Part shown: positions 2,689 to 28,569 of the stretch, piece by piece
Layout: every line of letters begins with the position of its first letter
Position numbering within the stretch: position 1 is the stretch's first letter
DNA from: Halichondria panicea
Lineage: Eukaryota > Porifera > Demospongiae > Suberitida > Halichondriidae
Assembly (NCBI RefSeq): GCF_963675165.1
Contig: NC_087379.1
Coordinates: 4,977,442-5,041,441, forward strand
DNA: 64,000 nt
Reading direction: 5' to 3'
Notes under the pieces: model-generated
What the model was told of the DNA's origin: nothing
Database searches by the model: none
What the model saw: the letters and a program-made list of their open reading frames with translations, nothing else
Position numbers and translations under genes: made by a program

Positions 2689-5600
2689 CTAAAATCCTCT
2701 GAACGATCCTGGGGAAGACACCTCCAGAATCACAGTCAAGATACTTCCTATCCCTGGGACTATGTGATCGGTACACTTCTCTCCACACATCTTCTCAATC
2801 AATTGACCCTCACTTCCAAATCCATCGTACACCGCAACAGAATTAGACGAGCATTGCTCACTGTTGGGAATATCAAAATACTTGAAACGAACTTGGGCAG
2901 AACCGAAGGTAATCCAAGTACATGAAATTGTACCAGTGATAGGGCCTGAGGGAAGATTAGCAGGTCCGAAACGTTGACCCATCGGCATGACTCCACCGCA
3001 AGCAAAGTTTCCTTGAGGGTTGGATAGTAAAACAGGGCAATTCGGAGTGGGTGGTGGTAGTGTAGTTGGGGCAATGGTGGTTGGAGGTGTAGGGGGTCTA
3101 GTAGTTGGCCTGGTGGTGGGTAGGGGAGTGGTTGGATCTGGTGATGTCGTGGCTACTGTAGTTGGCCTGGTGGTAGGTAGGGGAGTGGTTGGACAGACTA
3201 TCGTGTACTCAATCCTGAATCCCGTACGTTTTGGTCCATGATATGGTCCAGCAAAGAAGTATAGTCTGGTATTGCCAATTGCAGTGATGAGAGAAGGTCT
3301 ACCAAGATCACAAATGGTGTGAATTAAGCCGGTAGTATTGTGGATCTTCAAATAATCTTTGGGACAGTTTTCAGTTGTTTTTCCAGCTATCCCAAAAGCT
3401 AAATCATCAAATGTGAGGCGAACATTGCATCCTGGAGAAGGAACTTGGATGTTCCATTCACAGTTAAAATTTAAGGGGTAGTTCGTGGGCCAGGCAGGTG
3501 TTTGGAAGCTTCCAGAGGCACCTGTGAAAAGACTTGGCCCACATATACTAGCAGGTGTGGGGGGCTGTATGGTCGGTGTTGTCGTGGAAATTGTGGTCGT
3601 TCTGGTTGTGGGTGGAGGGACAGTAGTTGGAGTAGTAGGGGGAGCAACAGTTGGTGGGGCTGTATATGAAGTAATGTATTAGATCATAATTATAAAAGGA
3701 TAGAATTGATTTTTCTAAGGCATCTGTATATAGCTGGTCTTATGTGTATAAAAATAATTTCTGCGAAACATGAACGAATGATCAAATGTGGGATCTCATT
3801 TGTTTACCGCCAACATATGCTAAACAGATCATTGTATAACTTATGTGTTCTCTCTTTCCAACACACACCCACACTCATATGCATGGGAAATTGTTTTAGT
3901 GCCCACACGATCTGAAAACATGTACATATTTAGTAATGTCCCTAGCTCACATAGTAATGAAAAATACTTGTGGTGACTTACCAGTAGGTGGTGTTGTTGT
4001 GCAGCTCAGACCATCTGCTTGTAGGTAGTAGCCAGGATTACATTTGCATATATAAGAGCCTCCAGTGTTGTCACAAATATGATCACATCCTCCATTATCG
4101 TATGCACACTCATTGAAATCTGCACGAAAACAAGTGTTTGTGTACATGATCATGACAATCACAGTTAGTGTTTATGCATGTGTTGAGGTAGGCAATTCGA
4201 GTTAAATGCTATTATTATAGCCTCTGAAAACATTAGAGCTGCATTATTCACTTACCAAAGCAAGTACTTGCTGCTGGAGAGTGATAGTATCCATTTTTAC
4301 ATTCACAGCGGTACGATCCGTCAAGATTTGTGCATGTGTGACATCTGTTTGATTGGCCACCACACTCATTGATGTCTGTAGTCAATTATGCACATGCATG
4401 GTAGGTTAAAATAATGTATACATCATAACTATAGAAAGTATAATTATGACCATGCAGGCCAGTCTAAATAATTATTGTGGTTTCAAATTCTGATTGTAGA
4501 ATGCACTTCACTCCGTGCTATAGGATGGTAAATTTATGTTCTACATATCTACGTACAGTCAAATTGTGTAAACCGCTAGCCAATTAAAGTACCTACCAAT
4601 TGTTGAGAAGTCCACCCGAAGTCCCCGCGGTGTACCAGGTCCTGTGTTGCTACTATCAGTGTGGTAGTAGACAGTTGCTGTGTTGTCATACACATAGTTT
4701 GAGGTGTATATCATGCTAGAGCTGCAAAATTTGCCATCTCTAGCATTTCTTGAAAGATATTCACCATCCTCGGGGTTTATAGATCGTCCAGTAAATACTT
4801 GGACATAGTCTTTAATGCACCCAGCACTGTAATTGGAGAGTGTATCTGATAAGAGTCTGAGAACAACTCATACTTGTACATGTTTTGACAAATATTTTGT
4901 ACTGCTACAAATCCGCCAAAATAACAGAGAAAAATCTGAAAACGCCAAAATTACTACCCGTCTATAATAGTTAACATTAAGGTAACTATCCATTCTAGAA
5001 CTGAAACACTAGATTGTAGTAGTTTGCCAAACCATAAACATACATTAAGGTGTCTGCTATGTCAATCAAAAGTAAAGGGCGTACAGACAATGGAATCTAT
5101 GAGTGTATATTATACACAGTAACGATTAATAGTTTTCTGGCAGCGAAGTTACCTCTGCTCTAGGCTGAGTCCTGGAAAACTCAGGCGAACTCTGTATCCT
5201 TCAGGCACCCGAATCACCCATGCACACCTCTGATTCACAATATGGTTGGGATAACTCGGCGAGTAGAATGTTCCACTTTTACCTTCAATGACTCCACCGC
5301 ATGTGATTCCATCCGGAAGGGTCAGGGCTTTAGTACTTTGTGGGTAGGTGCTAATCGGGGGCCTTGTAGAACCTAATATTATAGTATAAAATATATTACA
5401 CTTACTAGTACTATGCAGGCAGGACACTCACCACATCGATAAAGGGCATTTGCTTTAAGAATATCCAAAGGGCTTAGTTCTTGTGCAGAGCCGAACACAA
5501 TTCCCCTGTCTATCGCTACAATAGTCGGATTGCTACGGGACTTTGCAAACGAAGTACCAGTGTAGTGCATAATGCTGGCATAGTCATAGCCATAACCTAA

Positions 5601-11030: not shown

Positions 11031-11252
11031 CCGTATAGCGCGAAATTTTCGAGGCACTTCCTCTACATTGCACACAATGTTCGTAGAATGACTGCTTACC
11101 GGAAGCCACGCCTTTAATCTCTTTGTACGTTATGCCAGATAATTCTAATTTTCTAATTAAAGAATAATTTTATTTTCATGTAGGATTGCTAACCCACAAA
11201 ATCAGCGAAAATTAAGCACCTCGAAAATTTCGCGCTATATATAGCTATACGG
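11031..11252. mobile_element. TA-flanked CCGTATAGCGCG MITE, copy 1
   Basis: The termini are near-inverted repeats: left CCGTATAGCGCGAAATTTT, right AAAATTTCGCGC followed by TATACGG with a short insertion. TA flanks both sides (11029-11030, 11253-11254). It is non-coding and typical of a Tc1/mariner-type MITE. An orthologous copy sits at the same place upstream of gene B (16924-17132), so insertion predates the tandem duplication. Confidence 0.75.
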
Positions 11253-11649: not shown

Positions 11650-11862
11650 GTAGGACGAGAGGTGCATGAGTCTAGTGGTTGGATGTGGTGTTGTCGTGGC
11701 AACTGTAGTTTGCCAGGTGATGGATGGGGGAGTAGTTGGACGTGGTGTTGTCGTGGCTACTGTAGTTGGTATAGTTTTGGGTGAGGGAGTGTATGGTCAG
11801 ACTGCATGTGATTGTCATATGTACTCAATCCTGAATCCCTTACAAAGAGGTCCACGAGTTGG
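11650..11862 (-). pseudogene. Relic of an astacin CUB/linker exon
   Basis: Read on the minus strand this segment still shows GFRIEY followed by PKTIPTTVATTTPRPTT-type linker, as in the last exon of the cluster genes, but the frame is broken and there is no flanking CUB, EGF or protease exon. It is the fossil of a former paralogue. A second copy lies at 17520-17725. Confidence 0.7.
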
Positions 11863-12529: not shown

Positions 12530-15500
12530 TTAAATTTGTTTAAATTGTGCATAGAATCCTCTGAACGATCCTGGGGAAGACACCCGCAGAGTCACGGTCA
12601 TAATATTTCCTGTCCCTGTGACTGTGTACTCGCCACACTTCTCCCCACACATCTTCTCAATCAATGGAGAATTTGAACCAGTTCCAAATCCATTGTGCAC
12701 CGAAACAGAATTAGACGAACATTGCCTACTGCTGGGAATATCGAAATAATTGAACACGACTTGGAATGGTCCAACACCGAAAATTATCCAATTGCATTCA
12801 GGCTTTGTGGTGCCAAGGAAAGGGCCAAAGGGCAGATTAGTAGGTCCGAAACTTTGACCTATCTGGAAGAATCCACCACAACTGAACGTTCCTTGAGGGT
12901 TGGATGGTAAAACAGGGCAATTCGGAGTAGGTGGTGGTAGCGTAGTGGGAGCGAGGGTGGTTGGAGGTGTAGTCGTGGTAGAACGAGTGGTGGGTCTAGT
13001 AGTTGGCCTGGTGGTGGGCGGGGGAGTGGTTGGATCTGGTGATGTCGTGGCTACTGTAGTTGGCCTGGTGATGGGCGAGGGAGTGGTTGGACAGACTATC
13101 GTGTACTCAATCCTGAATCCCGTACGTTTTGGTCCATGATATGGTCCAGCAAAGAAGTATAGTCTGGTATTGCCAATTGCAGTGATGAGAGAAGGTCTAC
13201 CAAGGTCACAAATGGTGCGAATTAAGCCGGTAGTATCGTGGATCTTCAAATAATCTTTGGGACAGTTTTCAGTTGTTTTTCCAGCTATCCCAAAAGCTAA
13301 ATCATCAAATGTGAGGCAAACATTGCATCCTGGAGAAGGAGCTTGGATGTTCCATTCACAGTTAAAATTTAAGGGGTAGGTCGCGGGCCAGGCAGGTGTT
13401 TGGAAGCTTCCAGAGGCACCTGTGAAAAGACTTGGCCCACATATACTAGCAGGTGTGGGGGGCTGTGTGGTCGGTGTTGTCGTGGAAATTGTGGTCGTTC
13501 TGGTTGTGGGTGGAGGGACAGTAGTTGGAGTAGTAGGGGGAGCAACAGTTGGTGAGGCTGTATATGAAGTAATGTATTAGATCATAATTATTAGATCATA
13601 ATTATAAAAGGATAGAAATGATTTTTCTAAGGCATCTGTATAGCTGGTATTATGTGTATAAAAATAATTTCTGCGAAACATGAACGAATGATCAAATGTG
13701 GGATCTCATTTGTTTACCGCCAACATATGCTAAACAGATCATTGTATAACTTATGTGTTCCCACTATCCCACACACACCCACACTCATATGCATGGGAAA
13801 TTGTTTTAGTGCCCCACACGATCTGAAAACATGCACATATTTAGTAATGTCCCTAGCTCACATAGTAATGATTTGTGGTGACTTACCAGTAGGTGTTGTT
13901 GTGCAGCTCAGACCATCTGCTTGTAGGTAGTAGCCAGGATTACATTTGCATATATAAGAGCCTCCAGTGTTGTCACAAATATGATCACATCCTCCATTAT
14001 CGTATGCACACTCATTGAAATCTGCACGAAAACAAGTGTTTGTGTAGATGATGACACTCACAGTTAGTGCTTATGCATGTGTTGAGGTAGGCAATTCGAG
14101 TTAAATGCTATTATTATAGCCTCTGAAAACATTAGAGCTGCATTATTCACTTACCAAAGCAAGTACTTGCTGCTGGAGAGTGATAGTATCCATTTTTACA
14201 TTCACAGCGGTACGATCCGTCAAGATTTGTGCATGTGTGACATCTGTTTGATTGGCCACCACACTCATTGATGTCTGTAGTCAATTATGCACATGCATAG
14301 TAGGTTAAAATAATGTATACATCATAACTATAGAGAGTATAATTATGACCATGCAGGCCAGTCTAAATAATTATTGTAGTTTCGAATTCTGATTGTAGAA
14401 TGCACTTCACTCCGTGCTATATATAGGATGGTAAATTTATGTTCTACATATCTACGTACAGTCAAATTGTGTAAACCGCTAGCCAATTAAAGTACCTACC
14501 AATTGTTGAGAAGTCCACCCGAAGTCCCCGCGGTGTACCAGGTCCTGTGTTGCTACTATCAGTGTGGTAGTAGACAGTTGCTGTGTTGTCATACACATAG
14601 TTTGAGGTGTATATCTGGCTAGAGCTGCAAAATTTGCCATCTCTAGCATTTCTTGAAAGATATTCACCATCCTCGGGGTTTATAGATCGTCCAGTAAATA
14701 CTTGGACATAGTCTTTAATGCACCCAGCACTGTAATTGGAGAGTGTATCTGATAAGAGTCTGAGAACAACTCATACTTGTACATGTTTTGACAAATATTT
14801 TGTACTGCTACAAATCCGCCAAAATAACAGAGAAAAATCTGAAAACGCCAAAATTACTACCCGTCTATAATAGTTAACATTAAGGTAACTATCCATTCTA
14901 GAACTGAAACACTAGATTGTAGTAGTTTGCCAAACCACAAACATACATTAAGGTGTCTGCTATGTCAATCAAAAGTAAAGGGCGTACAGACAATGGAATC
15001 TATGAGTGTATATTATACACAGTAACGATTAATAGTTTTCTGGCAGCGAAGTTACCTCTGCTCTAGGCGGAGTCCTGGAAAACTCAGGCGAACTCTGTAT
15101 CCTTCAGGGACCCGAATCACCCATGCACACCTCTGATTCACAATATGGTTGGGATAACTCGGCGAGTAGAATGTTCCACTTTTACCTTCCATGACTCCAC
15201 CGCATGTGATTCCGTCCGGAAGGGTCAGGGCTTTAGTACTTTGTGGGTAGGTGCTAATTGGGGGCCTTGTAGAACCTAATATTATAGTATAAAATATATT
15301 ACACTTACACTTACTAGTACTATGCAGGCAGGACACTCACCACATCGATAAAGGGCATTTGCTTTAAGGATATCCAAAGGGCTTAGTTCTTGTGCAGAGC
15401 CGAACACAATTCCTTCGTCTTTCGCTACAATAGTCGGATTGCTACGGGACTTTGCAAACGAAGTACCAGTGTAGTGCATAATGCTGGCATAGTCATAGCC

Positions 15501-16447
15501 ATAACCTAATGTAAGTGTTTGACCAGGTCTAGCTTTCGCAAAATTGCCTGCTTGTCCATTACGGATGTTATTTGTGATTACGTTTACGTACTGATCCCGG
15601 TCATGCCGAGTGTGCTCATGATAAAATCCTATTGCATGTCCTATCTCATGAATAGCTGTTCTCAAATACACACATCCCGGACCCAGAGAGACACCTTGAG
15701 GTTGATAATTGCGATGCAGACGTCCAACATAAGAATAGCACCTAGATACATGTAAATAAAATGGTGTTATGAACATGCAGTTTGTCTTTCAATATTCAAA
15801 TTATCATAAACACAATTCTATAATGAGACAAACTTACCCATCTCCTGAAAGGATATAGATGAAGTAGCGTTCTGTTGTGCGAGGAAAAAATCGAAGACAA
15901 GTTCTGTCTTCCCAGTGCCTCATTGCCTGCAGGATTACTTCCCTATCATTTTCTGAATGTTAAGAAAGAACAGCTGTGTGAGCTTTTGTTAGACACAAAG
16001 CAAACTAATCAAATTAATACATCTTTAGAGACACCCCATTTGTAATCTAAGTCGCGTATGGTAACTACCAGTCTATCACATATCATCTTGCTCTTACCAC
16101 TAAAGTCAGGAGAAATGGTGTATGGTACTTGTGCATTCGGCCATAGAGCGCTGGAATAACGTATTGCATTTCTCCTAGTTCTTGTCTGATCTGTGGACTG
16201 ATTCTTGCCGTGAGGAACTTTGATGAATGCCATGTCTCCAATGTGCTTTATCATGGCTGCAAATTAATTTTATAGATACTGTACCATAACATTGATACAA
16301 TAACAAACCTGCTTTGGCTGAAGGGTCTGAGAAATGTCCATTAAACTCATCTTTGACCTCTTCTACATTCTTGTCTGTTGATTTCTCATGAGTGGAAGAT
16401 GCCAGGTGAAATATGAGCAGAAGAGTTATGAAGATTTGCTGTAGCAT
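12530..16447 (-). CDS. Astacin B: secreted astacin-CUB-EGF2-CUB-CUB-like protease
   Basis: The nine exons are 16447-16309, 16256-16098, 15952-15838, 15741-15341, 15275-15056, 14729-14500, 14274-14155, 14021-13887 and 13557-12530. They join in frame to 848 aa. Order: signal peptide (1-18); propeptide with HIGDMAF (52-57) and RTRR (72-75); astacin catalytic domain to about 271 with zinc motif H169-E-x2-H173-x5-H179 and Met-turn SIMHY; CUB1 (272-421, split by a phase-2 intron); two EGF modules (422-506, second DFNECAYDNGGC calcium-binding type); Thr/Pro linker; CUB2; Thr/Pro linker; terminal CUB-like module ending RGFYAQF. Astacins cleave matrix and growth-factor regulators outside the cell; CUB/EGF usually select substrates, but the substrate here is unknown. 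The start is the first Met before a hydrophobic stretch. Its 5' part matches A and its 3' end matches C. Confidence 0.93.
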
Positions 16448-16512
16448 TCTGTTTGTCTGTAGTGAGTTAGTAGTTCAGCTTTCTGGTTATTGGTTGACTA
16501 CTAACCTGAGTT

Positions 16513-16520
16513 ATTTTATA
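16513..16520 (-). promoter_or_regulatory. TATA-like box of astacin B
   Basis: TATAAAAT on the minus strand lies 66-73 bp before the B start codon. Genes C and D have TATA-like sequences at 88-95 and 82-89 bp, so the placement recurs in the cluster. Confidence 0.45.
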
Positions 16521-16923
16521 GGATGGTAATCCTGGTATTGGAAGTTTGTGGTTTCTAAGTTTCCTGCTGCCCACGCAGTCTTGAGATCTGACACTGGTGA
16601 CCTTAGACACAGGAAGAGTTGCTATGAAGCCTACACTAACATGATAATAGCCATCTCCTTTTTAAGTATCTATGCATGTTTTGTCATTATGCATTACCTA
16701 ATTTGGAGAACACAGCAGTTTAGCATACCTATAAGAACTTAAATCTGAAAGGTGAACACTACTCCGATTTTAGCTGAGCATAGGTCTATTAGGTTTTTCT
16801 CGTCTCCTCCCCTGCCTGATGCCACCTCTTTCACGCAGTATTGCTGATCTTGCCAAAATGAAGCCATGTGTTAATTTGTGCATGTGTATAAATTATATGC
16901 TGTTTATGATGTCAAAACTAATA

Positions 16924-17132
16924 CCGTATAGCGCGAAATTTTCGAGGCACTTCCTCTACATTGCACACAATGTTCGTAGAATGACTGCTTACCGGAAGCC
17001 ACGCCTTTAATCTCTTTGTACGTTATGCCAGTTTTAATTAAAGAATAATTTTATTTTCACGTAGGATTGCTACCCACAAAATCAGCGAAAATTAAGCGCC
17101 TCGAACATTTCGCGCTATATATAGCTATACGG
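16924..17132. mobile_element. TA-flanked CCGTATAGCGCG MITE, copy 2
   Basis: Same element, orientation and neighbours as 11031-11252, with a few substitutions. It was duplicated together with the flanking DNA rather than inserted independently. Confidence 0.75.
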
Positions 17133-17519
17133 TAGTACATAGGGTCACCAAAATAATGAAATGAATTGCTACGTAACACTGTATCTAGCCTCGAATCCAG
17201 GCCGATTAAAATACATAATACGGCCTGGTTTCGAGGCTACACGTACATCCAGCATTGAATCAAAATAAGGATAATGACACCCTCGACCCCTCATCCTGTT
17301 TTAACAGGAAGTAGATCAGTGTGCCGAAAACTATTGTGACCATTCATCAGTTGTCAATTGCAATTTCACACTTCCATGCTGCTCTGACAGATTTACTGCT
17401 GTGACGCGAATAAACTATTCCGGTCAATATCTTTTAGGCCAATTAGGAGATTGGTATACCACTTTGGTTTGTACGTTACGGTTACTTGGAAGTGGAGGTG
17501 TAGTGAGAGGAAGGTACGG

Positions 17520-17725
17520 TAGTAGGACGAGAGGTGCATGGGTCTAGTGGTTTGATGTGGTGTTGTCGTGGCAACTGTAATTTGCCAGGTGATGGATGGG
17601 GGAGTTGGACGTGGTGTTGTCGTGGCTACTGTAGTTGGTATAGTTTTGGGTGAGGGAGTGTATGGTCAGACTGCATGTCATATGTACTCAATCCTGAATC
17701 CCTTACACAGAGGTCCACGAGTTGG
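17520..17725 (-). pseudogene. Relic of an astacin CUB/linker exon, copy 2
   Basis: Duplicate of the relic at 11650-11862. GFRIEY and Pro/Thr linker codons are recognisable on the minus strand in a broken frame. It lies between genes B and C. Confidence 0.7.
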
Positions 17726-18379
17726 TGTCTCGTATTAATCGTATTGTTTCTGACAAATATTAATTTTCAATATAAAACACAGTCATAGTTACTGTGTTGA
17801 GCTCTTATCTAGGTGAAGAGGAATTCTAGACAGGCTAGACAAATTAGCTAACAGGCTCCTAGCTATAGGCAAAAAATAGCGGTTACAGCATAGTTGTTAC
17901 AGACAAATTGACTTCACAGTGTAAACTTAACCAAATTCTTACAAAAACATCAACTGACAGGCAAAGTGAAGTGAGGCAAAAAGGTGAATACATGCATGAA
18001 CGGAGCCCCAGAGGCTCGCACAACAACAAATTAAATGGAGATGGAGCATTACAATGAGAATTGTTAAAAGAAAAGAGTATGATATCAACATCATCACATC
18101 AAATTAATTATGGTTTAATTATACTTGTCTACATAATTTATTAATACACGTGCATTGAGCAAATGAACATATACTGTCTATAAAGCCCAGCCACACACAT
18201 TGAACAAAAAAACATGCTGTCTGGTTATGTTGGTGATTTAGTTTTTAACCAATGTAATAATAATAACGAACACGCTATGATTCACAGCAAAATATATGGC
18301 TTTCAGTGATTAGAATAAAGTGACGATCAAAATATATTATGTGAAATAATTATGATTTATATAAATGTTGGTTTATCAC
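17726..18379. other. 3' flank of astacin C
   Basis: No gene seen. This is the presumed 3' UTR and downstream DNA of C, nearly identical to the 3' flank of B (11863-12529). Confidence 0.6.
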
Positions 18380-21300
18380 TTAAATTTTTTGTGATTGTGC
18401 ATAGAATCCTCTGAACGATCCTGGGGAAGACACCCGCAGAGTCACGGTCATGATATTTCCTGTCCCTTTGACTGTGTACTCGCCACACTTCTCCCCACAC
18501 ATCTTCTCAATCAATGGAGAATTTGAACCAGTTCCAAATCCATCGTGCACCGAAACAGAATTAGACGAACATTGCCTACTGCTGGGAATATCGAAATAAT
18601 TGAACACGACTTGGAATGGTCCAACACCGAAAATTATCCAATTGCATTCAGGCTTTGTAGTGCCAAGGAAAGGCCCAAAGGGCAGATTAGTAGGTCCGAA
18701 ACTTTGACCTATCTGGAAGAATCCACCACAACCGAACGTTCCTTGAGGGTTGGATGGTAAAACAGGGCAATTCGGAGTGGGTGGTGGTAGCGTAGTGGGA
18801 GCGAGGGTGGTTGGAGGTGTGGTGGGTCTAGTAGTTGGCCTGGTGGTGGGCAGGGGAGTGGTTGGATCTGGTGATGTCGTGGCTACTGTAGTTGGCCTGG
18901 TGATGGGCGAGGGAGTGGTTGGACAGACTATCGTATACTCAATCCTGAATCCCGTACGTTTTGGTCCATGATATGGTCCAGCAAAGAAGTATAGTCTGGT
19001 ATTGCCAGTTGTAGTGATGGGAAAAGGTCTACCAAGGTCACAAATGGTGCGAATCAAGCGGCCGTTATTATTGTAGATCTTCAAATAATCTTTGGGACAG
19101 TTTTGAGTTGTTTTTCCAGCTATTCCAAAGATTGAATGGAATGTGAGGCGAACATTGCAACCTGGAGAAGGCACTTGGATGTTCCATTCACAGTCAAAAT
19201 TGAAAGGGTAAGTCGCAGGCCAAGAAGGAGTTTGTAAGCTTCCAAAATCATCTGTTAAACTTCCACCGCATAAGGAAGGAGGAGATGTGGTAGGACGGGT
19301 GGTGGGTCTAGTAGTTGGCCTGGTGGTGGGTAGGGGAGTAGTTGTATCTGGTGATGTCGTGGCTACTGTAGTTGGCCTGGTGGTAGGTAGGGGAGTGGTT
19401 GGATCTGGTGATGTCGTGGCTACTGTAGTTGGCCTGGTGGTAGGTAGGGGAGTGGTTGGATCTGGTGATGTCGTGGCTACTGTAGTTGGCCTGGTGGTAG
19501 GTAGGGGAGTGGTTGGATCTGGTGATGTCGTGGCTACTGTAGTTGGCCTGGTGGTAGGCGGGGGAGTGGTTGGACAGACTATCATGTACTCAATCCTGAA
19601 TCCCGTACGTTTTGGTCCATGATATGGTCCAGCAAAGAAGTATAGTCTGGTATTGCCAGTTGTAGTGATCGGAAGAGGTCTACCAAGGTCACAAATGGTG
19701 CGAATCAAGCGGCCGTTATTATTGTAGATCTTCAAATAATCTTTGGGACAGTTTTGAGTTGTTTTTCCAGCTATTCCAAAGATTGAATGGAATGTGAGGC
19801 GAACATTGCAACCTGGAGAAGGCACTTGGATGTTCCATTCACAGTCAAAATTGAAAGGGTAAGTCGCAGGCCAAGAAGGAGTTTGTAAGCTTCCAAAATC
19901 ACCTGTTAAACTTCCACCGCATAGGGAAGGAGGAGATGTGGTAGGACGGGTGGTGGGGGGTGTAGTAGGACGGGGGGTAGGGCGTGTAGTAGGACGGGGG
20001 GTGGGACGTGTAGTAGGACGGGGGGTGGGGCGTGTAGTAGGACGGGAGGTGGGGCGTGTAGTAGGACGTGGTGTAGTTATAGTGGGAGGGGGTGTCACAG
20101 GACATGATGACGGCAATTGTGGTGCAATTGGCAATGAAGGGTTAGCTGCAATAGAAAAAAATCAGGTAATTTATTGCTATACAGCTACGCTCTGCTAAAG
20201 CTGTTGATGATATGGAACTTTACAGGCACAAAGCAACTTACATTGTCTAGGTCCACAGCTTTTGCCATCCGATTGTACGTACTGACCAAATGGACACTGA
20301 CATCTGTAAGAGCCACCCATGTTGACACATTTGTATTCACACCCTCCTTTCTGGTAGGCACATTCGTTTATATCTGAATACAAGTGTGGAAGACAAATTA
20401 ATGATAACGTGGTCTTTGTTGAATAGCACACTAACTGAAGATCATTTGTAAAACATATTTACACGTACCGTAGCAGGTTGTCGCAGCTTTTGAAAAATAG
20501 TAACCTTTTTTACAACTGCACTCAAATGAACCCTGAGTATTTCTACAGTTGTCACATCTGGCACTTTGACATTCATCCTCATCTGTGCACATAGAAAAAT
20601 AATTACCACACGTTTTAATATTACGTTAAAATTGATTGTAGAAGTCTAGTTTCTAAGCAAATCCCAACTCTTACCTATACAGGTGATTTTAATTTGAAGT
20701 CCAGTGCTTCCCCCAGAACTGTCAGTTCGATAAAAGACGGTAATAGTGTTGGTACTTGCAAAGAATCTTGTTCGACTGTATCGATTTCCGCAGATCCTTC
20801 CATCGGTGAGACCACCATATCTAATAATATCCTGATTGTCCAAGCTCGAACCAAAATAGAGTTGAGCATAATCTTTAGTACAACCAGAGCTGGAAAAAAA
20901 CAGATCAGCTCAGCTAGTACATAGTTTTTAAATTATTCGATTTTCAATACCTTGATTCTAAGTTCATTGATGGAAATTCGATTTGAGGAAGGAAACCACT
21001 GGGACATTGAAACACAAAGGCACACTCTTGATTTGGGAGGTGAGATGGGTACCCAGGGGATCGTACTGTTCTCATCTCACCACCACTCAGAACCTCCACT
21101 GTTCCACAGCGGCTGCGGCTGGGGTTCACAGGAGGTAAGGCCGGTGGAACAACAGTGTTCGGAGGAGAAAGTGGGCAAGCTGGAAAATGACAATACAAAA
21201 ATAAGCTATAAGTCACTGTAATCTGTCCTGGTTGACTTACGGCAGTTGTAGAGCTTGTTTGCCTTTAATATGTCCAGAGGACTCAGTTCCTCAGCCTCTC

Positions 21301-22419
21301 CAATTGGGATGTTAGGTTGGTTGGCTTGTATGGTTTCACTTCGTCCATCTCTTGAGAATGCTCTGCTAGAGTAGTGCATGATACTGGCATAGTCATAGCC
21401 TAGTCCAAGGGTGTTTCCAAAGCTTATTCCAAACGCTCCAGTGATGCCAGAAAAAACATTATTTTGCAGGATAGTCACATATTGATCCCTGTCACTACGA
21501 CTATGTTCATGGTAGAATCCAATTGCATGGCCAAGCTCGTGGACTGCAGTAGAAAATCGGACACAGTTGGGACCAAGAAACAATGGTTGAGGTCGTATTC
21601 TTGTCCGTCCTAGGTAAGATCGACAGCTGCAAGTAGAGTGAGCTTTGTAATTGTAATGATTCACGGGATATTACAATAGGAAATATTTATATGGCATGCA
21701 CTTACTCTCCAGGTGAACTGGTCACTATTCGAATGGAGTAGATATCAGAGACTCGAGGGCGAAAACGAATGCAACAGTTCTCTTCCCAATGACGCATTGC
21801 TTGCAGTATGATCCTCCTCTCTTGAGCTGTATGCACAGTTCGAAAACAGATAAACGAATGCTCAAAGTATATTTATACTCACCATCAAACTCGGGTGCTA
21901 TCTCGTAAGGGATAATCCCACCAGGCCATAGGTTTGACACTGCATTTCTTTTGTTCCGGTACTGTTCACTGTTTTCTTGCTCCATTGAAGAGTCTTCGAA
22001 TATCATGTCTTCAATTTCTTCGGTGTTCTCTACAGTAAAACATACATGACAAACAAATTTGACAATACTATTTATGGGGCCAAATATAAGAGAGCCAGGA
22101 ATACCTGATTCATAATTCAGAAGCTCTATCCTGATTCTATAGCCTTGGTATATAGCATCAGGTTCATGCAATGCCATGCACATGCAGTGGAAATCTATGC
22201 TATTGCCTCACCATAATGTTTTTCGATGACATGCTCCCCATTGGCATTGTATGAAAATCCAAAGACTCCTTTAGCTTGACTTCGAGGTTGGTTGAGGCTA
22301 TGCAGCTCAGTAGGGGCATCATCTGTGAGCTGGCTACTGTGGTCACTAATGGTAGGTAAAGCATTTGCTGCAAGCAAGAGTGCAGCTGTGAATGCAGTGA
22401 AAACTGCAAGTTGTTCCAT
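18380..22419 (-). CDS. Astacin C: astacin-CUB-EGF2-CUB-CUB-CUB-like protease
   Basis: Exons 22419-22212, 22029-21883, 21826-21706, 21626-21241, 21179-20951, 20889-20675, 20582-20469, 20373-20242 and 20145-18380 join in frame to 1105 aa. Signal peptide (about 1-20); propeptide with IEDMIF (75-80) and furin site RNKR (94-97); astacin domain with H188-E-L-G-H192-x5-H198 and SIMHY; CUB1 (about 288-435); two EGF modules (to 517); Pro/Thr/Arg linker of repeated TTRPTPRP; CUB2; linker of four 19-residue repeats ([19 protein letters not shown]); CUB3, almost a copy of CUB2; linker; terminal CUB-like module. Intron positions and phases match A and B. The protease and CUB1 are clearly diverged from B, but the last CUB, linker and terminal module are almost identical to B. 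C has one CUB more than A, B, D and E because of an internal duplication. The product is expected to be secreted. Confidence 0.92.
19330..19560 (-). repeat. 57-bp coding minisatellite in the linker of astacin C
   Basis: About four tandem 57-bp units encode [19 protein letters not shown] (19 aa, in frame), nearly identical to each other. One unit is present at the matching place in A and B. The linker length of this family therefore changes by whole 19-residue steps. Confidence 0.9.
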
Positions 22420-22506
22420 GGCAGGTTATGGCGGTTATTAGTAGAATTGCACAACTTTGTAAGTTTTCTTTTCTGATTTCTGAGAGTTATCACTGATTAG
22501 TGCAAG

Positions 22507-22514
22507 TTTTTATA
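22507..22514 (-). promoter_or_regulatory. TATA-like box of astacin C
   Basis: TATAAAAA on the minus strand, 88-95 bp before the ATG of C. Supported by position and by similar boxes in the other cluster genes. Confidence 0.45.
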
Positions 22515-24136
22515 GGGAACAAGCTTCCGGAGTTACAGGGGTTGTAAATATTACACCCCCCAGATTGGTGACCCCCCAGTATAGGAAGTGAAGAAAGTGT
22601 TTTAGGGCTTTGGGGGTGAAGCCATACTATAACAATTCGTGGATTGGGTGTCTTGCCAGAATATCTAGACCTACATTATAACTAGTCCAAACTCTACTAC
22701 CCAGCATGAGACACTCGTTATTGTGCATGCCCTTAAACCGCTAATCAAGCCATGGTCTGTTAGGTGCACGTTTTGAAGAGCCTATAGGTTGCAAGTAGTC
22801 TAGTACCACCGATTAAAAGTGGCAGGTTTGGAGCTATAATTATATACTATAGCTACACTGAAACGGATTTATTTACTGTGTTGAGGAGATGGGGGAGCAG
22901 CTTCATTCGTGCACCTTTATAATATCCCCCTCTCAGGACCATGCATGGTTGATCTTTGTCTGGTGCCTTGATCAGCTCTTTAGATGTACGAATTGGCATT
23001 CGATAATAACAAGGCATCCACAATGCATGAAATCACGGTTGACAGCCTGAAATGTTACTGTTTGATCTCTCTCACTTCCATGTATGAGAAAATGATCAGA
23101 CCATGAAGTTGCATCTACATATATGGTTGTGCCATTGATTGGGTTGCAATATAAATTATAAATGCACTAATAAGACGTTCTAAGATTATGTAAATTATAG
23201 CTGTTGACATAATTATCGGATTTATTTGAATCACATGCATGGTCAACAAAAGTAGCACTACAATAAAATGAGTCATAATTTAGCTATTGCCCAATAAAGC
23301 AAACTTGTTCAATTGTTATTGTGGGAACACGTATCACACTTCTTCAATTACCATTGAGAAGGCAATCAGGCATAACCTTATACAGACATCAATAGACTCT
23401 TCTTTTACAAAGTCGTAACTGATGTCAGCACACACCTATACAGACCCACTGCTTGAATATGTCAACTTGTATTCAGTTGTGACAAATACTTAACCTCCTA
23501 CTTTGTTCTTGAATAAAACACAGTGCTATTGAGGTCACGTAGCATCACGTTGTGGTAAGTTTTATAATTATGACTTGTCAGTACCAATGTGTAGGTGGAC
23601 ACTACAGTACAAGTCCGTGTCTACAGTGACCATGCTAACACATTAATAATTATTATAATTACAGACACAAAAACATGGTCTGAATTTGTCTAGTTCACAC
23701 TATGGTTCGGAGGAGTGCCTATATATAGTGGCCCATTAATTATGTTAATACTAAATCAACAGTGAAACATAACATGCATACTGGGTGTGCATGTTCATTT
23801 TGAGACACATGCATGCATGCAGAACACCATGGATGCTACATACTCACATGAAGGCTCATACCCTGCCAGTAAAAATTGCATGGAGGCTAAAACATGCAGC
23901 ACTGTACACAACTGGATTCTGAACCAAAAGGATCATGTGAAACTAAAGTCCCAAATGAAACACATAATAATTATAATTATAGCTAACATGCAGTCTGATT
24001 ATTGTTGGCACATTTAATTAGACAAGTATATGTACATGTAATTATACAGCAGTATAACGAATTCGAAAATGTTTCGATTCACAGTAAAAGATTATGGATT
24101 AAAATACAATGTGAAGATCAATTATTTTTGAATCAG
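22515..24136. other. Intergenic region between astacins C and D
   Basis: About 1.6 kb, AT-rich, without a convincing exon, RNA gene or transposon terminus. It contains the rest of the C promoter and the D 3' end. The sequence next to the D stop resembles the ends of B and C only over the last codons. Confidence 0.45.
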
Positions 24137-27100
24137 TTAAATTTGTTTAAATTGTGCATAGAATCCTCTGAACGATCCTGGGGAAGACACCCGTAGAGTC
24201 ACGGTCAAGATACTTCCTGTCCCTGTGACTGTGTACTCGCCACACTTCTCCCCACACATCTTCTCAATCAATGGAGCACTAGTTCCAAATCCATCATACA
24301 CCGAAACAGAATTAGACAAACATTGCTCACTGCTGGGAATATCGAAATAAGTGAACATGACTTTGAATGTTCCAGCACCGAAAATTATCCAATTGCATTC
24401 AGGATTTATGGTGCCAGGGAGGATAGGGCCTAAGGGCAAATTAGTTGGTCCGAACGTGTCATTAACGTTCATGAATCCACCACAAGCGAACTTTCCCGGA
24501 GGGTTGGATGGTAAAACAGGGCAATTCGGAGTGGGTGGTGGTAGCGTAGTTGGGGCGAGGGTGGTTGGAGGTGTAGTCGTGGTAGGACGAGTGGTAGGTC
24601 TAATAGTTGGACCTGGTGTTACCGTGGCTACTGTAGTTGGCCTGGTGGTGGGCGGGGGAGTGGTTGGACAGACTATCGTGTACTCAATCCTGAATCCCTT
24701 ACGCTTAGGGCCGTGCTTTGGTCCAGCAAAGAAGTATAGTCTGGTATTGCCTGTTGTAGTGATGGGAGAAGGTCTAGCAAGGTCACAAATGGTGTAATTC
24801 AATTTCTCGTATATTTTCAGGTAATCTTTGGGGCAATTTTGTGAAGATTTTCCTGCTATTCCAAATGCATTAATATCGAAGCTCAATTCAACATTGCAGT
24901 CTGTCGATGGCACCTGGATGTCCCATTGACACTCGAAATTTACAGGGTAGGTCTTGGGCCAGGATGGGGTTTGGATGCTACCAGCGGCAGCAGTTGACAA
25001 TCCTCCACACAACAAGATAGTTTTAGGATCAACGATGTCTTCTATAGTAGTCTCAATTACAATCGTTTCAGGCTCAATTACAAACTCAATTTTATCGAGA
25101 GTACAAGAATGTCCGTCCGGTTGAAGAGTGGATTCGCTATCACAAAAGCATTGATATGATCCGTCAGAATCTGTACAGTGACCAGAACATCCACCGTTGT
25201 TGTCTGCACACTCATCGATATCTGCAGACAAACAAAAAGAGTGAACACAAAACATGTACACGTAGAAGATCTGAAAGCTTGTATAGTATATTTTGGTAAT
25301 GTGCTTTGCTACAACTACGTAGGAAAAAAACTAAACACACCTTCGCAAGTAAGTCCATTATCTGCCAATTTGTATCCCTTGGAACAGTTGCATTCGTACG
25401 ACCCTGGAACGTTTGTGCACAAATCTTGACAGCCTCCATTTCTTGTGAGGCACTCATTCACCTCATCACAAGACACCCTGTTAGATGAGAGGTCGTACCC
25501 CTTAGGGCATAAACATCTCGCCGTATCAACGTCACCAGGGACAACCTCACAGGAATGCTCACAATTGGCAATCAAACAAGGGTCCACGGTATCATCTATG
25601 TGAGAAATAATTCTGTCATATAAATATATTGTAGGTATAATGACTGTTCGACTAACAGCGTGTCTATGAAAACTAAACGCACCTTCACAAGTAAGTCCAT
25701 TATCTGCCAATTTGTATCCCTTGGAACAGCTGCATTCGTACGACCCTGGAACATTTGTGCACAAATCTTGACAGCCTCCATTTCTTGTGAGGCACTCATT
25801 CACCTCATCACAAGACACCCTGTTAGATGAGAGGTCGTACCCCTTAGGGCATAAACATCTCGCCGTATCAACGTCACCAGGGACAACCTCACAGGAATGC
25901 TCACAATTGGCAATCAAACAAGGGTCAACGATATCATCAGCATCTACGTGAGAAACAAGTTATTTCATTATTTCTGCTATATAAATATTATAGGTATAAC
26001 GACTGTTTGACTAAAAATTCTGTCAGTGTGTCTATGAAAATTAAAAGCACCTTCACAAGCAAATCCATTATCTGCCAATTTGTACCCCTTGATACAGCTG
26101 CATTCGTACGACCCTGGAATATTTGTGCAGAAATGTTGACAGCCTCCATTTCTTGTGAGGCACTCGTTCTCCTCATCACAAGACACCCTGTCTGATGAGA
26201 GGTCGTACCCCTTAGGGCATAAACATCTGGCCGTAAGAACGTCACCAGGGACAACTACACAGGAATGCTCGCATTTGGCAATCAAACAAGGGTCCATGGT
26301 TCCATCACCATCTGAGAAACAATTAATCTATATCACGACTGTTTGGTTTAGAATCCTAGCACTAAAGGAACATGTAGAGGAATAAGCTAGCCGTGTGCAA
26401 ATAATTATGCATACATGTATATACCTACAACACATGTTTTCCCATCAGAGAGTAGCCTGTAGCCATCCTCACACACACAGTGGAAAGAGCCGCCTTTATT
26501 TATACACTTGTGATCACAGCCCCCTTTGTCCAGGGCACATTCATTCACATCTACACGGAAGACAAAAATAAATATAGGTATACATGTATGATTTTGTATC
26601 GACATACTTACCAAAACATTGCTTGTGGTCACTGGATAAGAAGAATCCTTTAGGGCAGTGACATTCATATGATCCAGGAAAGTTTGTACAGTTGTGAGAA
26701 CAGTATGCACCATACGCACACTCATCGAAATCTTCAGACTCAAATCTTAAATTGAATCCTTTCAAGCCAGTCCTCTGATTTGAGCTATCAGTGTGGAATC
26801 GAATGTACGCAATATTGGTAGTCGTATAGGTGTTGATAATTCGATCCGATGATTGACAATACTTTCCGATACCGTATCCATTTCGGTTAAAGTTCTCGTG
26901 AATATGTAAGTAATCATTTACACAGCCTCGGCTGTAAAGGGTGAAAATGAATAATCATGAATCACTCTATGTCAATAGTACATAACATCAGCATGAGGGG
27001 ATAAATACGTAAATGCTATACACCTATATACTAACATACATCAATTTATTATTCTTACTTGTAGTCCATATCCAGTTCTACTGTGAACCTTATTCGATAC

Positions 27101-28569
27101 CCCTCTTCAACTCTGATTGTCCACTCGCAGTCAGTATCGTGTGAGTAGACGCCATAGTCTGGTGAGCTGAAGGAGCCACTCGAGACACCATCGAAGACAC
27201 TGCCACATGCAAACTCATGAGGTGGAAGGGTTGGCTCGGGCACTATCTCATCTGGCACAAAGGTCGTTCGTGGGGGGTGGTCTTCAGTAGAATCTAAGAT
27301 GGGAATAAGTAACATGATACGTCATTTTAATTGGTCTATGCATGCAGAAACTTAACTATCATAGCACTAAAAGCATGCATAAAATAACATCTGCTGGCTG
27401 TGAAATGGCTTTTTAAACTGTCATTTTATCCTTACTTGAGCATTTACAGAAGAGGTTGGCTCTAAAGATATCCAGAGAACTCAAAGTATGGGCTTCTCCA
27501 ATTGGTATACTTGGATCAAGTGCAACTATCGTATCCAGATGAGAACTGTGTGCAAAAGAGTTTTTATCGTAATGCATAATACTGTTGTAGTCGTATCCAA
27601 CTCCAAGTAAATCCACTTCATCAAGACTGAGTTTTGTGAACTGTGAGAGTACACTCCTCCCCGGTTTAAGATTATTCTCGAATATATCGATGTACTCGTC
27701 AGGCCTGTTGTGCTCGTGGTAGAATCCGATAACATGTCCAAGCTCATGCACTGCACTACTAAATGAGAAGCAAGACGGGCCAATCGAAACCCTCTGTTGA
27801 TTGGATGTTCTGCCAACATATGATCCACACCTATACAATACAGATAGAAGTGATAAGCAACCAAATCCATTATAATTGCTGTATCACCATTCAAATACAA
27901 TCATCTCGCTATTATCGCTGATTCACAGTTATAACCAATGTTGAATAGAGATGGTATACCATCAGTGCATCTATACTATATCTCACCCTGGACCAGGATA
28001 GATGAAGATGTAATTATCTTCAGTTGTCCTCTTCCTAAAGCGTACGCAGGTGTGCTCCTCCCAATGCGCCAATGCCTCGGTTACGACACGCTGTTGTTTC
28101 TCTGCAATATAGGTTGTAATTGTAAAAATTATTCATGGATGTTTGCGACTATAAAAAATGTCCACACAATACTCACCAGAATAGAATTCATCTATAATGT
28201 AAGGAATGACACAGTTGGGCCATTGCCAACTCTTGGGCTTGACAACGGCTCTCTTTTGTTTTCCCTGCGAGGACTCTTTGTAACTCAGCTTCTCATTCAA
28301 TAGCTCTCGGTAGTTTTTTGTGAAGTAAGTTATATCTCCAACTTTTATTGTGAAATCTGTGCAGTGGACAGTAATATTTTTAGTGTGTGTGAAACTACTC
28401 ATTCCAATTTCTTAAACTTACCAGTGTCTACAGTTGGGTCATAAACAATTGTCCTTTCTTCAGCCATTTCATTACTTTCTCTCACATCTTCAGTTTCAAT
28501 TGGTAAGCACTCCACTACATAAGTAGTTGTCACAGCAAGCAGACACATTAACAAAGCTTGATTCTTCAT
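24137..28569 (-). CDS. Astacin D: astacin-CUB-EGF9-CUB-CUB-like protease
   Basis: Eleven exons: 28569-28422, 28356-28177, 28101-27987, 27830-27436, 27293-27059, 26931-26612, 26550-26425, 26311-26051, 25943-25683, 25595-25341 and 25221-24137, in frame to 1126 aa. Signal peptide (1-21); propeptide with KVGDITY (54-60) and KQKR (82-85); astacin domain with H176-E-L-G-H180-x5-H186 and SIMHY; CUB1; EGF1 fused to the second half of CUB1 in one exon (an intron present in A-C and E is missing); EGF2; three exons that each encode a pair of EGF modules (DPCLIA.CEHSC... and [12 protein letters not shown]...); EGF9; CUB2; Thr/Pro linker; terminal CUB-like module ending [10 protein letters not shown]. Many EGF modules have D-x-[ND]-E-C starts typical of calcium binding. 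The long EGF rod probably spaces protease and CUB domains. It is head-to-head with gene E. Confidence 0.93.
25341..26311 (-). repeat. Three tandem copies of an EGF-pair exon
   Basis: Exons 26311-26051, 25943-25683 and 25595-25341, with their short introns, are tandem duplicates. The last two are nearly identical over the exon (for example [19 protein letters not shown] in both), while the first differs at many positions. All are phase 1-1, so copies can be gained or lost without shifting the frame. Confidence 0.92.

Follow-up and report, generated by a model that had tools for sequence, protein, structure and literature searches.

A mosaic astacin-CUB gene with an A-type front and a C-type tail in a tandem array of Halichondria panicea: probable origin by unequal crossover

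Gene B and the array in which it lies

In the sponge Halichondria panicea, a 64,000-nt stretch of DNA (the window, G000:C3:4977442-5041441; positions within it are marked w where needed) carries several astacin-CUB protease genes, and we were interested in one of them, gene B, the front of which is of the type of its neighbour A and the tail of the type of its neighbour C. A sequence-only reading of the window had named the genes A, B, C and D and had taken B for a chimera left by one unequal crossover; these names were kept and a block number was appended, so that A6, B6, C6 and D6 denote the genes of the window. We consider it very probable that B arose as the duplication-bearing, 'anti-Lepore' outcome of an unequal crossover in which a gene of A type and one of C type took part. 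The features that bear on this are listed below.

w16447-12530, minus strand: gene B (B6), nine exons, 848 amino acids; splice model made by hand, introns GT-AG, frame open throughout
16447-16309, 16256-16098, 15952-15838, 15741-15341, 15275-15056, 14729-14500, 14274-14155, 14021-13887 and 13557-12530, minus strand: the exons of B6
w13181..16509, minus strand: A-type half of B (promoter, exons 1-8, CUB2)
w13077..13180, minus strand: interval in which B6 switches, between its last A-type and its first C-type diagnostic site
w12530..13076, minus strand: C-type Thr/Pro linker and terminal CUB module of B
w16510..18379, minus strand: C-type 3' spacer, first copy, between C and B, with a relic at 17546-17706 and a miniature inverted-repeat transposable element (MITE) at 16927-17119
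w10608..12529, minus strand: C-type 3' spacer, second copy, after B, with the relic at 11674-11809 and the MITE at 11034-11239
w2689..10519, minus strand: gene A (A6), parent type of the 5' half, with a stop in exon 4 and a shortened C-terminus
18380..24000, minus strand: gene C (C6), parent type of the 3' half; extent approximate

The predicted domain order of B is signal peptide, pro-region, astacin, CUB, two EGF, linker, CUB (CUB2), Thr/Pro linker and terminal CUB, where the signal peptide and pro-region were assigned by eye and the other domains by Pfam (Astacin, 2.7e-60; CUB in three stretches; EGF_CA in two). The astacin profile spans 2-188 of 189 positions in B and the HExxHxxGxxHE zinc motif is present as HEIGHAIGFYHEH; as judged by this motif and the whole-domain profile, B is an astacin (M12A) metalloprotease. 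The closest solved structures are tolloid-like 1 (E 1.7e-47) and BMP1 (1.7e-45). BMP1/tolloid proteases have the order astacin-CUB-CUB-EGF-CUB, which is not matched by the astacin-CUB-EGF-EGF-CUB-CUB of B.

The genome searched comprises 131.5 Mb in 39 contigs of a single assembly. When the 3' part of gene B was searched against this genome as DNA, 56 matches were obtained, 53 of them along about 230 kb of contig C3 (4775804-5002430) and the remaining three clustered on contig C2 near 5.926 Mb. Comparison of C3:4740001-4980000 joined to the window (301 kb) resolved these 230 kb into six tandem astacin-CUB blocks with their genes on the minus strand.

G000:C3:4773000-5014000: astacin-CUB array, six tandem blocks with mixed relationships between blocks
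Block 1: A', A1, C1, D1
Block 2: A', A2, C2, part of D
Block 3: A3, C3, D3
Block 4: A', A4, C4, part of D
Block 5: A', A5, B5, C5, D5
Block 6 (the window): A6, B6, C6, D6

The order D, C, B, A described earlier was recovered, with the addition that the window is only the last of six blocks. B is present in two of the six (5 and 6), and C adjoins A without B in the other four. Between blocks, some segments reach 99.8% identity over 6.7 kb, as might be seen if haplotypes or blocks had been falsely joined in the assembly. We nevertheless judge such an artefact improbable: six blocks exceed two haplotypes, the fused layout occurs at two places, and single blocks have private features, such as a nested element in A that is whole only in block 6 and a 386-bp gap found only in the C2 and C4 spacers.

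The mosaic of B and its doubled spacer

Sliding identity of B to the local A and C, proposed earlier as a check over exon 9 and the flanks, was computed in 150-bp steps and swaps sides a single time. From w16450 to w13151, identity to A is 0.76-1.00, with only two windows below 0.95 (w16001-16150 at 0.76, across the site of the insertion in A, and w15701-15850 at 0.85), whereas identity to C is 0.13-0.62 and reaches 0.75-0.89 only in the two CUB2 windows. At w13001-13150, B is close to both (A 0.95, C 0.99), and from w13000 to w10601 the values are 0.87-0.99 for C and 0.10-0.80 for A; the last window, w10451-10600, resembles either poorly (A 0.33, C 0.40). B is thus clearly nearer to C than to A over the 3' module and flank, where equal closeness to A had been named as the finding that would speak against a chimera. 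The A-like character of B from the promoter through CUB2 was borne out by both sliding identity and diagnostic sites, SLITAIGN in CUB2 being of A type and the PTTPSPITRP linker of C type, as had been read. The tail is C-like through the terminal module and flank, also as read, and the flank extends for about 1.9 kb to w10608 instead of the 650 bp given.

Diagnostic sites were those with one fixed state in the six A copies of the array and another in the six C copies (139 columns, reduced to 116 events). B6 has 30 A-type and 3 C-type events up to w13180, followed by 0 A-type and 83 C-type events from w13077 (Max-chi-square, 0 of 10,000 permutations as extreme), and the switch placed earlier at 13095-13170 falls inside this interval, w13180-13077. 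For B5 the counts are 34 A-type and 6 C-type up to w12941, and 0 and 74 from w12906, with two events that match neither type (again 0 of 10,000 permutations as extreme). When all 12 A and C copies were compared with their own class in a leave-one-out control, no comparable switch was observed, only scattered single sites. The B6 switch interval also holds the longest tract identical between A6 and C for five of the six C copies (67-97 bp; for C1 it lies elsewhere), and for A3 the longest tract shared with C copies is mostly outside the interval. This coincidence adds little, since a switch interval is by definition free of fixed differences.

The spacers C-B and B-A are colinear and 93.7% identical over 1948 columns; with the end of exon 9 included, w10608-13412 and w16506-19244 agree at 93.4% over 2833 columns. 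Relic and MITE were located in both spacers, colinear and in the order C-spacer-B-spacer-A that the sequence-only reading had reported. The first relic copy (w17546-17706) has stops in the single frame read, and the MITE has 26-nt inverted ends and a sequence that is present on many other contigs. A dispersed repeat of about 310 bp was also noticed in the spacer (w11943-12255), with copies 72-75% identical on several other contigs.

Both parent types flank B in the same orientation. We favour a crossover because parent, fusion and parent together with a doubled spacer are the outcome of one unequal exchange in exon 9. The front half of B6 is 97.1-99.1% identical to the six A copies (2350 ungapped columns) and its tail half 97.6-98.1% identical to the six C copies (1557 columns), a similar divergence of both halves from the parent types, as expected from one exchange. 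We infer that, starting from an ancestral block of the order ...D-C-A..., exon 9 of A would have paired with exon 9 of C on the other chromatid via the homologous CUB domain encoded there, and that an exchange in the near-identical stretch ending CUB2 and starting the Thr/Pro linker would have led to a product chromatid with C, spacer, an A front joined to a C tail (that is, B), spacer and A. During or after block amplification, exchange between copies would then have reshuffled short patches, and the A gene of block 6 would have decayed. A reciprocal gene with a C front and an A tail was seen in none of the array copies compared in this one assembly.

Short patches of near-identity across blocks (B6 and A2 with 0-1 differences per 300 positions over w14529-15428; the C3, C5 and C6 modules identical over 311 bp) would also fit gene conversion, in which the tail and 3' flank of a tandem A duplicate had been overwritten by C. 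Conversion would, however, need a separate duplication of A and a tract of about 2.4 kb reaching from the linker through the module and across the spacer to the promoter of the next A, where one crossover yields the same layout, and we regard it as quite unlikely.

Relatives of B6 and B5 among the array copies

Several observations weigh against an exchange in its simplest form. Upstream of its switch, B6 has three sites of C type (13384, 13218 and 13205), two of which are also found in the copy Ap4. Over the promoter and the first two exons, B6 and A1 show 4 differences in 482 positions, B6 and the local A6 18 in 476; the tree of this part places A6 on the opposite side from B6, together with A2, A4 and A5, and sisterhood of A6 and B6 is rejected by the approximately unbiased (AU) test (p-AU 6e-12). 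Further in, it is not rejected (p-AU 0.13 for w14291-16028 and 0.059 for w13181-14290). The tree of module plus flank joins C6 to C3, and the grouping of C6 with B6 is rejected (p-AU 0.001). As literal parents of B, the local A6 and C6 are rejected by the AU tests in parts, though not A6+B6 at w13181-16028. That the local A and C are in parts not the nearest relatives of B is compatible with later exchange between copies; closest kinship with the adjacent copies would be expected of a recent and undisturbed crossover and does not define an old one. Of the origin proposed by the sequence-only reading, the crossover of an A-type with a C-type gene is retained; the present A6 and C6 as its partners are not supported as stated, one event between these two copies is too simple a picture, and one event for the whole array is somewhat the likelier of two readings.

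The parental C-A arrangement, for which other individuals or related sponges had been suggested, is present inside the same genome in four of six blocks, but B may once have existed in blocks 1-4 and been lost there. As copies share patches across blocks and an exchange between B and A would restore the C-A order, these blocks are not provably ancestral. Deletion of a former B from them by such a reverse exchange between the near-identical front halves of B and A nevertheless seems to us rather unlikely. The copies are nearly star-like in parts, which blurs the time order and leaves room for a loss; nothing recognisable as a remnant of B was seen in these four blocks, which speaks only weakly against a loss as none would be expected.

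The rival explanations are not mutually exclusive, and a second crossover, in particular, would be compatible with the mechanism favoured here. As for the two B genes, we lean towards one crossover as the origin of both, in which case the linker of B5 would have been patched later. B5+B6 is favoured in the promoter and exons 1-2, where the two differ at 1 position in 482 bp (4-18 differences to the six A copies) and where both stand upstream of an A of the other, A2/A4-like type. Two further 300-bp windows show no difference between B5 and B6, module site 12883 is common only to these two among the B and C copies, and the front half of B5 at w14291-16028 is not of the local A5 type (p-AU 0.017-0.025). 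The module-only tree (56/58), the mid-gene tree (71/80) and the stretch w14291-16028 (p-AU 0.22 for B5+B6) favour neither one origin nor two. The ratio of replacement to silent substitution rates (dN/dS, method NG86) between B5 and B6 is 0.30, with the lowest dN of 28 pairs; the underlying counts are small (8 silent and 8 replacement changes in 655 codons).

Against a single origin stands the switch point of B5, which has the same layout as B6 but changes type at w12941-12906 instead of w13180-13077, and the linkers of the two also differ in composition. In the 3' flank, for which colinear pieces were compared as the B5 spacer holds other sequence, B6 groups with C3/C6 (96/95) and B5 with C1/C5/C2/C4, and B5+B6 is rejected (p-AU 0.004 for the flank only, 0.013 for module plus flank). 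We read this rejection as leaning on a single 300-bp patch, w11109-11408. These differences would be explained by two independent crossovers with the CUB2/terminal-module seam as a recurrent exchange point, a possibility that we hold to be real but the less probable one in view of the near-identical promoters and exons 1-2, the A2/A4-like A genes downstream, the foreign front half of B5 and site 12883. A 3-bp form of exon 8 and a G at 14057 were also considered as marks of B5 and B6 only and were discarded, both being found in the four A' copies (A1-A6 are without them); with 13384G present in Ap4 as well, these characters are weak evidence of a shared origin. The B5-A5 spacer (block 5, G000:C3:4941106-4943271) contains an extra segment like the older A-A' spacer and a short C-flank piece in double, which may be a sign of further unequal exchange.

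The new tail, the parental copies and comparable gene families

According to the predicted protein, B keeps the promoter, signal peptide, protease, first CUB and EGFs of A and gains the terminal CUB module of C. This module is 95-96% identical at the protein level to the C modules (C6, C4) and 67-68% to the A modules (A2, A6), while CUB2 of A and C are 80-82% alike. B is presumably made as a protein, and the new tail may alter the binding partner of the same protease, since it is C-like and the modules of A and C are more divergent than their CUB2.

The state of the copies was judged over exons 1-8 and that part of exon 9 which is of A type. Open frames are kept by A1, A2, A3, B5 and B6. A4 is broken in exon 5, A5 in exons 4 and 8, and A6 by a stop in exon 4; A6 also ends early in its module. 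A rule that A decays where B exists was not adopted: a broken A stands next to B in two of two cases (A5, A6), and one more (A4) is found among the four blocks that lack B, numbers too small for such a rule. For the ten pairs of open copies (A1, A2, A3, B5, B6) dN/dS is 0.30-0.46, except for A2-B6 at 0.98 with four silent changes, and where a pair includes a broken copy (18 pairs) the values are 0.36-0.68, from small counts. C also decays in places, C1 (block 1, G000:C3:4789307) having lost its frame in the catalytic exon.

A 3.9 kb insertion in intron 2 of A6 separates its promoter and exons 1-2, at about w10040-10519, from the rest of the gene.

w6102..10039, no strand assigned: nested transposon in A6 intron 2, with inverted ends CAGGGGCGGATCCAG and a 5-bp target duplication, TTTAG

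An open reading frame in this element (w7385-9511) encodes a reverse-transcriptase domain, and the outer parts (1-503 and 3728-3938) adjoin at other places in the genome (40 of 517 candidates scored), which suggests one element inside another. Within the 301-kb region the whole element is confined to block 6, and parts of it match many places in the genome.

Exons 1-6 have no match in the four A' copies. The 3' flanks of A3 and A6 (A6: w1-2670) are A'-type at 12 of the 12 sites that separate the flanks of A (A1, A2, A4, A5) from those of A', and at the single separating site in exon 9 A6 is A-type and A3 A'-type. The A'-type flanks imply that blocks 3 and 6 hold one full A, and blocks 1, 2, 4 and 5 an A plus a truncated A'. 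Blocks 3 and 6 may thus represent either a deletion-type fusion of A with A' or an older state from which the A-A' pair was derived. The A-A' spacer resembles the C flank at 77-81%. A broader reading, in which exon 9 would be a recurrent exchange point that joined C-type tails onto A-type proteases at least twice, the array a protease-tail shuffling system with decay of the parental A after each fusion and the A-A' pair an older round, is speculative and in our view doubtful.

Fusion of tandem genes by unequal crossover is well known, for example from haemoglobin anti-Lepore and the duplication type of CYP11B1-CYP11B2. The layout of B is like these in the order parent, fused gene, parent, in that the fused gene takes its front from the downstream and its tail from the upstream neighbour, and in the doubled intergenic segment; unlike them, B lies in a six-block array, shares patches with other copies and occurs in this layout twice. 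The mechanism is textbook knowledge and B a well-documented further example.

Among secreted proteins, the spiggin genes of sticklebacks include intrachromosomal chimeras (PMC4989455), are likewise tandem and keep their domain order; the chimeras described there come mainly from transcripts, partial genomic sequence and one draft-assembly locus (PMC4989455). The B array, in contrast, is known from the genomic layout, with unfused blocks in one assembly. Sdic of Drosophila melanogaster (PMC7475035) is comparable as a young tandem family of similar copies and differs in the type of gene. No description of an astacin array with fused members was found in the listed part of the matching open-licence papers, as covered by titles and the beginnings of abstracts. 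The array offers a domain-swap gene that can be checked, with unfused blocks, two fused copies, swapped patches and a decaying parent on one chromosome, and the birth of a new protease-tail combination may be traced in it without a second species.

Upstream of exon 9, C6 has no match to the A or B copies (E 1e-20, 150 bp). Its Thr/Pro linker contains, at w19311-19574, 4.6 copies of a 57-bp unit with 97% match, and the linker length differs among copies. Next to C6 lies the fourth gene of the block.

24137..28300, minus strand: gene D, upstream neighbour; extent approximate

A truncated D gene is common to blocks 2 and 4. The plus strand carries, at w32313-32876, a different type of astacin gene that has relatives in other blocks.

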